This document shows, in pieces, positions 32,791 through 34,657 of a stretch of 64,000 nucleotides of DNA (positions are counted from its first letter, which is position 1; every line of letters begins with the position of its first letter). The DNA is from Akkermansiaceae bacterium. GTDB lineage: Bacteria; Verrucomicrobiota; Verrucomicrobiia; Verrucomicrobiales; Akkermansiaceae. Both the position numbers and the translations under genes were made by a program. A model generated the notes under the pieces. It searched no databases, was not told the DNA's origin, and worked only from the letters and a program-made list of their open reading frames with translations. The DNA is taken from NCBI GenBank assembly GCA_015061985.1, contig SUVN01000006.1:1-64000 (forward strand), written 5' to 3'.

Positions 32791-32862
32791 ACCTCAGAGG
32801 AAACATTTCATTTGCAATAAGTTCGATAACAACTAGTATACCATTCGATAAATAACTGGGCG

Positions 32863-33276
32863 CTAGTATATCGTTCTGCAAATAATTCCACAAGTTTACA
32901 AAGAATAAATGGGAATTTGTAGAGGGAAGATGTGCGGGCAAGCCCGCACGCGAAATTGCCCTGACAGGCAGCGAAATTCATGGCTGGAGCCATGAGCGAA
33001 ATTATCCACTACGTGGATAGCGAAATTACCGCCGGAACGGCGGTAGTGAAAAAGAATGGCAGCCCAAAGGGCTGCGGAACTCTATCACTGCTGCCGGAGG
33101 CAGCAATTTCGCTGACAGCGTAAGCTGTTAATTTCGCTCGGCGAAAGCCGAATTTCGTTCGCGCCGCAGGCGAGAATTTCACTTCGCTCTTCAGAGCGAA
33201 CTTCCTCGACAAATTCCCATTGATCTACCGATGTGTCTATTTCTGCTGTTTAGCTATTTATCGAACGCTATACTAG
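32863..33276. mobile_element. MITE-like element with terminal inverted repeats carrying a hairpin array
   Basis: CTAGTATATCGTTC (32863) versus reverse complement CTAGTATAGCGTTC of 33263..33276. Confidence 0.65.
32932..33200. repeat. Hairpin array with GCGAAATT linkers (AATTTCGC in the right half)
   Basis: GTGCGGGC/GCCCGCAC, CATGGCT/AGCCATG, ATCCAC/GTGGAT, ACCGCCG/CGGCGGT, GCAGCCC/GGGCTGC, GCTGCC/GGCAGC, ACAGC/GCTGT, CGGC/GCCG, CGCTCT/AGAGCG stems. Confidence 0.85.
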
Positions 33277-33454
33277 TCTGACTTTCAACCGCTGAAACAC
33301 CTCTTCTGTTCAAACAAAATCCCCTGTTTTGCCGCCACTTTTCGCGTTCATCAGAATCTTTAGCCTTGAAACCTCATGAAAAAGAGTATAAAATGCCCGC
33401 GCGGAGCAGTAGAACAAGCTGATTCCGATAAACTTCCAACAAAATAACACAACT

Positions 33455-34657
33455 ATGGCAAAACTGACTGTTCGCGACCTCGACGTCGCCGGTAAGGAAG
33501 TCCTCATGCGCGTGGACTTCAACGTTCCCATGAAAGACGGCGTCATCACCAACGATGCCCGTATCGTGGCCGCCCTGCCCACCATCAAGTACCTGGTGGA
33601 AGGCGGTGCCCGCCTCGTGCTCTGCTCTCACCTCGGCCGCCCGGAGGGCACCGGCTATCAGGCCGAGTTCTCCCTGAAGGCTGCCGCTGAGTGCCTGTCC
33701 GGCCACCTGGGCAAGACGGTTGCTTTCGTTCCCGAGACCATCGGCGAGGCCGCCACGGCAGCCCGTGCTGCGCTGCAGGACGGCGATGTGCTTCTGCTGG
33801 ACAATGTTCGCTTCGACAAGAAAGAAAAGAAGAATGACCCCGAGTTCGCCAAGGCTCTTCTGGGCAACGCCACGCTGTATGTGAACGACGCATTCGGCTC
33901 TGCCCACCGCGCTCACGCCTCCACGGAGGGTGTGACCCACTTCGCCGAGAAGTCTGCCATGGGCTTCCTCATCGAGCACGAGCTCGAGTATCTGGAAGGC
34001 AAGCTGGAGACTCCCGAGCAGCCCTTCGTCGTCATCATGGGCGGCGCCAAGGTATCCGACAAGATTCAGGTGCTCTCCAAGCTCATGGAGAAGAGCCAGA
34101 CCTTCATCATCGGCGGTGCCATGGCCAACACCTTCCTGGCTGCTCAGGGCCACAACGTGGGCAACTCCAAGATTGAGGCCGACAAGCTGGACCTCGCCAA
34201 CGAGATTCTGGCCGATGCCAAGGCTCGCGGCGTGAAGTTCATCCTGCCCGTTGACACCCGCTATTCCTTCAAGTTCGAGGAAGGCGCAGAGACTTTCTGC
34301 ACCGCTCCCTGGGCAGAGGGCGGCGAGGTACCGGAAGGCGGCATGGGCATCGACATCGGCGACAAGGCCATCGAAAACATCTGCTCCATCCTGAAGAGCG
34401 CCAAGACCGTCCTCTGGAACGGCCCCATGGGCGTGTTCGAGCTGGATTCTTTCGCCGCCGGCACCAAGGCTGTGGCAGAGTGTCTGGCAGAGGCCGACTG
34501 CACCTCCATCGTGGGTGGCGGCGACTCTGTGACGGCTGCCAAGAAGTTCAAGGTGGCTGACAAGCTTTCCTTCTGCTCCACGGGCGGCGGCGCTTCCCTC
34601 GAGCTGCTGGAAGGCAAGGTTCTGCCCGGCATCGGCTCCCTGACCGACAAGGCATAA
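33455..34657 (+). CDS. pgk: Phosphoglycerate kinase
   Basis: VLMRVDFNVPMKDG, LVLCSHLGRPEG, WNGPMGVFE, IVGGGDSV. Confidence 0.97.
   Translation: MAKLTVRDLDVAGKEVLMRVDFNVPMKDGVITNDARIVAALPTIKYLVEGGARLVLCSHLGRPEGTGYQAEFSLKAAAECLSGHLGKTVAFVPETIGEAATAARAALQDGDVLLLDNVRFDKKEKKNDPEFAKALLGNATLYVNDAFGSAHRAHASTEGVTHFAEKSAMGFLIEHELEYLEGKLETPEQPFVVIMGGAKVSDKIQVLSKLMEKSQTFIIGGAMANTFLAAQGHNVGNSKIEADKLDLANEILADAKARGVKFILPVDTRYSFKFEEGAETFCTAPWAEGGEVPEGGMGIDIGDKAIENICSILKSAKTVLWNGPMGVFELDSFAAGTKAVAECLAEADCTSIVGGGDSVTAAKKFKVADKLSFCSTGGGASLELLEGKVLPGIGSLTDKA

Follow-up and report, generated by a model that had tools for sequence, protein, structure and literature searches.

A hairpin array upstream of pgk in a gut Akkermansia genome, best read as the cargo of a palindromic MITE-like element that recasts Gut-1

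Between pgk and a divergent upstream gene lies a dense run of hairpins, here called array B, and the question is whether it is a conserved folded element in its own right, such as a noncoding RNA, or part of something larger. The window (the whole stretch of DNA that was analysed, 64 kb) contains dense hairpin clusters, defined as five perfect stems of at least 6 bp each within 170 bp, at two places only, array A and array B. The stretch 32820-33290 (471 nt) folds much more stably than its own shuffles (z = -11.1), none of 100 being as good. The sequence-only reading had described array B as a set of hairpins with linkers and a core, homologous to array A and supported by covariation as a conserved folded element. 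The hairpins, linkers and core were confirmed at 32932-33200 on the plus strand, and comparison within the window bore out the homology with array A. The compensatory change in stem 3 from G:C to A:T was exact, ATCCGC-TTG-GCGGAT in array A corresponding to ATCCAC-TAC-GTGGAT in array B. The structure given was only partial; the right half (33089-33200) with its inverted linkers and the two enclosing nested inverted repeats went unmentioned. In our best reading the fold of array B is conserved and the array belongs to a mobile palindromic DNA element, non-autonomous and of the MITE kind, which recasts Gut-1. Array B is, we consider it likely, the cargo of a 446-bp non-autonomous MITE-like element that inserted at CTAG in the spacer separating pgk from its divergent upstream neighbour.

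The whole element runs from 32832 to 33277 (446 bp), is palindromic and has CTAG at both ends. From the outside inwards come the outer inverted repeats and an inner inverted repeat (AAATGGGAAnTTGT); within them a central hairpin is preceded by five hairpins and followed by five more in reverse order, about ten small hairpins in total. A repeat search returned the two nested inverted repeats as 32832-32857/33252-33277 and 32905-32925/33204-33224, the outer terminal repeats being 26 bp long and 88% complementary. Pattern searches in the own genome placed the left outer terminal repeat (CTAGTATACCATTCGATAAAT, one mismatch) at 32833-32853 on the plus strand and the right one (CTAGTATAGCGTTCGATAAAT) at 33256-33276 on the minus strand. 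A second, internal left-type terminal repeat (CTAGTATATCGTTCTGCAAAT) is present at 32863-32883 on the plus strand, and this double left end recurs at C22 with another cargo. The inner repeats, found by both repeat and pattern searches, lie at 32907-32925 (AAATGGGAATTTGTAGAGG, plus strand) and 33204-33222 (minus strand).

Within the inner repeats, the left half contains hairpin 0 (GTGCGGGC/GCCCGCAC, 32932-32949), the imperfect hairpin 1 (GCCCTGACAGGC, 32958-32969), hairpin 2 (CATGGC/GCCATG, 32979-32994), hairpin 3, which bears the compensatory pair (33004-33018), and hairpin 4 (ACCGCC/GGCGGT, 33028-33044). The central hairpin or core (GGCAGCCC...GGGCTGC) is at 33058-33076. Hairpin 5 (TGCTGCC/GGCAGCA, 33089-33105) opens the inverted right half, followed by hairpins 6-9 at 33113-33200 with the separators AATTTCGC, AATTTCGT and AATTTCAC. 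Four left linkers (GCGAAATT, plus strand) start at 32950, 32971, 32996 and 33020 (span 32950-33027), and four right linkers of the reverse complement type (minus strand) are found at 33105, 33130, 33151 and 33175 (span 33105-33182). The left linkers, GYGAAATT, are complementary to the right linkers, AATTTCRC. The inner unit (AAATGGGAAnTTGT repeats, five hairpins, core, five hairpins) forms a giant palindrome in which left linkers can pair with right linkers. There is no gene inside the element, and pgk itself, encoding phosphoglycerate kinase (33455-34657, plus strand, Pfam PF00162), starts approximately 180 bp downstream of its end.

The linkers connect the array to a known family. Gut-1 (Rfam RF01706) was described by Weinberg et al. 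(2010; PMC2864571) as a probable noncoding RNA from the human gut with an unknown host, and it consists of three hairpins with the same linkers as the arrays. Array A (903-1170) matches the Gut-1 covariance model at 903-987 on the plus strand (58.9 bits) and at 1089-1170 on the minus strand (43.9 bits); array B matches it at 32969-33057 on the plus strand (36.1 bits) and at 33126-33208 on the minus strand (35.4 bits). With a gathering score of 50 bits, array A reaches the cut-off with its plus-strand match and array B stays below it. The array B element holds two head-to-head Gut-1 matches, both sub-threshold. The own genome as a whole has 36 Gut-1 matches at E ≤ 1, ten of them above the cut-off. 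Of 34 matches, 23 have an opposite-strand partner within 300 bp, and in 11 cases a minus-strand match follows a plus-strand one in head-to-head order. Gut-1 matches at E ≤ 1e-4 were found in 16 of 246 genomes of the family, all 16 belonging to this genus (77 genomes); the large, complete or near-complete genomes listed for the genus, of about 3 Mb, gave no Gut-1 match. Judged from sequence comparison, Gut-1 here looks like half of a palindromic mobile DNA repeat of uncultured herbivore-gut Akkermansia. The shared features are the linkers and three consecutive hairpins; the differences are that here it is half of a mobile palindrome, occurs twice head to head and belongs to an uncultured Akkermansia instead of an unknown human-gut organism.

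Comparison with relatives shows that the element was inserted at the pgk site, because two genomes with the same gene neighbours at pgk, G198 and G249, both lack it. G198 is 90% identical to the own genome over the upstream gene and 97% around the pgk start; for G249 these values are 67% and 93%. Where the window reads GATAACAA-CTAG-element-CTAG-TC, G198 reads GATAACAACTAGTC, and the left junction is exact (...GATAACAA-CTAG-TC). On the pgk side, the own genome and G198 have diverged over approximately 60-90 bp of spacer beyond the second CTAG, in length as well as in sequence, and the right junction is therefore less certain. CTAG on both sides of the filled site and a single CTAG in the empty one fit a duplication of either TA or CTAG, with the left junction as the exact one. 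For the copy at C23 the right junction is exact; G198 has no element there either and reads TTAG. Each of these two sites thus provides one exact junction, left at pgk and right at C23. At C26, C49 and C35 global alignments were too divergent for defining junctions.

The ends of the element are dispersed through the genome. The outer repeat CTAGTATANCGTTCGNTAAAT has 17 matches in the 2.37-Mb own genome (up to 3 mismatches) versus 1 for the reversed control; for the inner repeat AAATGGGAAGTTGTNGGGG the numbers are 26 matches and 4 in the control. Paired outer ends are approximately 280-450 bp apart, which leaves too little room for a transposase gene. Terminal inverted repeats, empty sites in relatives and no transposase gene inside, the features that mark a MITE, were all found for the array B element. 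A transposase of the IS630/Tc1-mariner type, inserting at TA within CTAG, probably acts in trans on the outer repeats CTAGTATANCGTTCGNTAAAT; the CTAG ends and the lack of an internal gene suggest this type. IS630 prefers TA in CTAG, according to the passage of PMC2170065 that cites Tenzen and Ohtsubo (1991). Neither the 17 repeat matches (in a draft genome broken at repeats) nor the inspected GTDB stretches contained a transposase with these terminal repeats. The element had no match among phage and plasmid records, and a literature search found no paper on such repeats in Akkermansia.

Full copies, with both repeats and the array, are present at C23 and C25, the latter as two neighbouring copies with one CTAG in common, and a damaged copy is present at C49. 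The inner unit occurs without these outer ends at C8 and C26. Array A and the copies at C38, C11 and C6 are also not within outer repeats, so that the array must also spread by another route. Inside the outer ends both orientations exist: next to the left-type outer repeat stands hairpin GTGCGGGC in the window, L331 and L341 (orientation B) and hairpin TTCGCTC in C23, C25 and C49. Since it also occurs without the outer ends and faces either way within them, the inner unit behaves as an exchangeable, invertible module, and exchange or inversion may proceed through its inner inverted repeats. The outer ends in turn enclose other cargoes. The left end of array B (88 bp) has a 98% identical counterpart at C22, which encloses a different hairpin cargo, and further hairpin-rich, gene-free cargoes between the same outer ends were seen at C3, C33, window 7402-7688, L331:340-640 and L340. 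At window 7402-7688, L262:1505-1780 and L331:351-628 the same outer terminal repeats enclose the palindromic cargo GGACGATGGACAAGG...CCTTCGTCCATTGTTC, a high-copy repeat with more than 20 matches in G249. Named Akkermansia MAGs from cattle, goat and roe deer carry the outer repeat, in goat with the array inside. The outer terminal repeat was also found exactly in Clostridia-type records, namely Bacterium 1XD21-13 (twice, once within a 55-bp palindrome) and MGBC000113 (L336:6228-6248, L345:2789-2843, L338:403-423). These sequence matches suggest that the outer repeat family crosses phyla.

The covariation on which the sequence-only reading relied held for stem 3; the mobile context, the opposed half-arrays and the identity of one half as Gut-1 had been missed. 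In 24 aligned copies 96% of the stem 3 cells are paired, and one pair occurs in three Watson-Crick states (A:T in 9, G:C in 7 and T:A in 6 copies). The covariation score was 0.090; shuffles gave 0.032 (sd 0.006), and sliding the stem gave no more than 0.024. The copies are related, so their counts are not independent. Stem 4 and the core are uninformative on covariation, because the pattern that collected the 24 copies selected them. In 126 distinct module sequences, picked solely by their position between two linkers, a stem of at least 5 bp was present in 61% versus 2.5% after shuffling, and a stem of at least 6 bp in 38% versus 0.25%. Pairing is strongly conserved while the sequence changes.

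Compensatory pairing is no proof of a functional RNA, because both strands fold equally and template switching could yield it; covariation alone does not distinguish whether an RNA function, the folding of the DNA or template switching during replication lies behind it. The compensatory pairs could have arisen mainly from template switching in inverted repeats during replication, in which case the covariation would reflect the mechanics of mutation and not selection on the fold. We regard this as a serious possibility, though less likely than not. Such a process makes and repairs perfect hairpins and can introduce both changes of a compensatory pair in one step (PMC8794818), and mismatches in the modules are rare, 97 of 160 being perfect and 22 of 160 having one internal mismatch. 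However, switching within a stem cannot explain why the linkers and core are conserved too or why stem families recur at fixed positions. This reading is about how the covariation arose and can hold alongside a MITE-like element.

That Gut-1 is a genuine noncoding RNA, the arrays being its genes and selection maintaining the folded RNA, appears unlikely. Its listing as a probable noncoding RNA by Weinberg et al. (2010; PMC2864571), the match of array A above the gathering score and the preservation of pairing through large sequence change all speak for it. Against this, the Gut-1 matches occur in opposed pairs within one palindromic element, the copies are mobile and missing from sister genomes, and the two strands of the whole element fold alike as RNA (-200.0 and -201.3 kcal/mol). 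Single internal mismatches on the linker strand were A.C in 9 cases and G.T in 2, small numbers that run opposite to the expectation for a G.U-tolerant RNA read from that strand. As a test of RNA versus DNA, wobble asymmetry was dropped, the mismatches being too few. In the MITE-like reading the fold would act as DNA, either as a cruciform or as a single strand, and not as RNA.

A further proposal is that the inner array is a recognised module of folded DNA that a dedicated enzyme swaps and inverts between the ends of different mobile elements by way of the AAATGGGAAnTTGT repeats, with an S23-type four-helix-bundle protein or a neighbouring tyrosine recombinase as candidate partner. We hold this to be improbable; if true, a single transposon shell could carry swappable palindromic cargoes. 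In the lineage, 13 of 40 S23-family loci have a hairpin array no more than 600 bp away, versus none in 400 kb of mid-contig DNA, a control that is biased low. Given this bias and a comparable tendency among RAYT genes, the S23 four-helix-bundle gene stays a lead and not a driver. Tyrosine recombinase was likewise rejected as a driver and kept as a lead, its copies often lying away from arrays.

Still less credible is a model in which the array is the recombination site of a nearby tyrosine recombinase, comparable to a folded attC, with the S23-type gene as the cassette. Homologues of one tyrosine recombinase are found approximately 0.1-2 kb from the arrays at array A, C11, C28 and C4, the same proximity is seen in G198 and G235, and 13 of 40 S23-family loci are close to hairpin arrays. 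But such recombinase matches number 16 in the own genome, many of them distant from arrays, RAYT genes have hairpin arrays nearby at a similar rate (4 of 17), and the mid-contig S23 control is biased low. Genes of the Phage_integrase family occur near some arrays, and neither these nor any other recombinase lies beside the carrier of array B.

Mobilisation of the array as a REP/REPIN/BIME-type element by a RAYT (Y1 tyrosine transposase) is very doubtful: the inverted hairpin pairs resemble BIMEs and one RAYT gene (C11:47303-47842) sits within the densest array cluster, but it is flanked by its own, different palindromes, Gut-1-type linkers in regular series were found at only that 1 of 17 RAYT loci examined in the genus, the array stems are joined by GYGAAATT without the unpaired GTAG (or CGTC) tag at the 5' stem foot that marks RAYT-linked REPs (GTAG; PMC3733652), and CTAG-flanked inverted repeats are unlike an IS200-type insertion. 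RAYT was rejected as the driver, the other RAYTs of the genus being without these arrays. RAYT, the S23-type gene and the tyrosine recombinases are none of them consistently tied to the array.

The MITE-like element resembles several known systems. With RUP of pneumococcus, an IS630-related MITE (PMC2229807), and with other IS630-related MITEs it shares a short, gene-free structure, terminal inverted repeats, a probable TA insertion (here within CTAG) and a large stem fold. RUP, however, is 107 bp, and the array B element is four times longer, with about ten different hairpins, complementary linkers and exchangeable cargo; unlike for IS630-related MITEs, no matching IS630 was found. REP, REPIN and BIME sequences are likewise intergenic palindromic hairpins in opposed orientation, but the array B element has up to ten distinct hairpins per unit, no GTAG/CGTC tag and no consistent RAYT neighbour, and it is enclosed by CTAG-flanked repeats. 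The Correia/NEMIS elements of Neisseria are also small non-autonomous repeats with inverted ends at TA, and their transcript, as here, would be highly base-paired; they differ in being stem-loop elements of approximately 107-155 bp and not hairpin arrays.

For the orphan Rfam family Gut-1, the MITE-like reading would provide a host and another identity, half of a mobile palindromic DNA repeat in place of an independent RNA gene. The case also warns clearly that mobile inverted repeats can produce strong covariation. In one species the element has changed the region ahead of pgk, which two relatives have without it. Arrays are also found where tandem amplification has occurred, with three tandem copies at C6 versus one in G198, and at a genome rearrangement: G237 has the left flank of the C35 array fused to the C38 array and its flank, with the breakpoint at an array. 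Because of the change upstream of pgk and these coincidences, the arrays may shape genome plasticity in gut Akkermansia.

Other repeats and genes were noted in the surroundings of the arrays. The densest Gut-1 cluster of the own genome (L034:2062-6659, G000:C11:46061-50658) consists of several elements interleaved with genes, encoding a XerC-like recombinase, the RAYT (Y1_Tnp), an S23-type four-helix-bundle protein (PF05635) and another tyrosine recombinase. Other S23-family genes in Akkermansia are flanked by arrays with different linkers (GATATAAC, GTGATATT), at L105:11750-12700, L112:8000-9350, L374, L376 and L381. A second RAYT adjoins tandem palindromic units of approximately 60 bp (AAGCCTGCRCCCTGCCGGGCGCTTGCGCAGGCGATGGCAACGGC) that reach the contig end (L035:2820-3367, the end of G000:C40). 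The left flank of array A (window 770-870) is similar to an S23-type gene at its 3' end and appears to be a decayed copy; a tyrosine recombinase fragment 90% identical to the one at C11 ends approximately 340 bp before array A. Shortly before array A, at window 651-736, there is also a 33-bp tandem repeat (CCCACATTTTCTGAACGACTTTTCCACCAATCC) in 2.6 copies.
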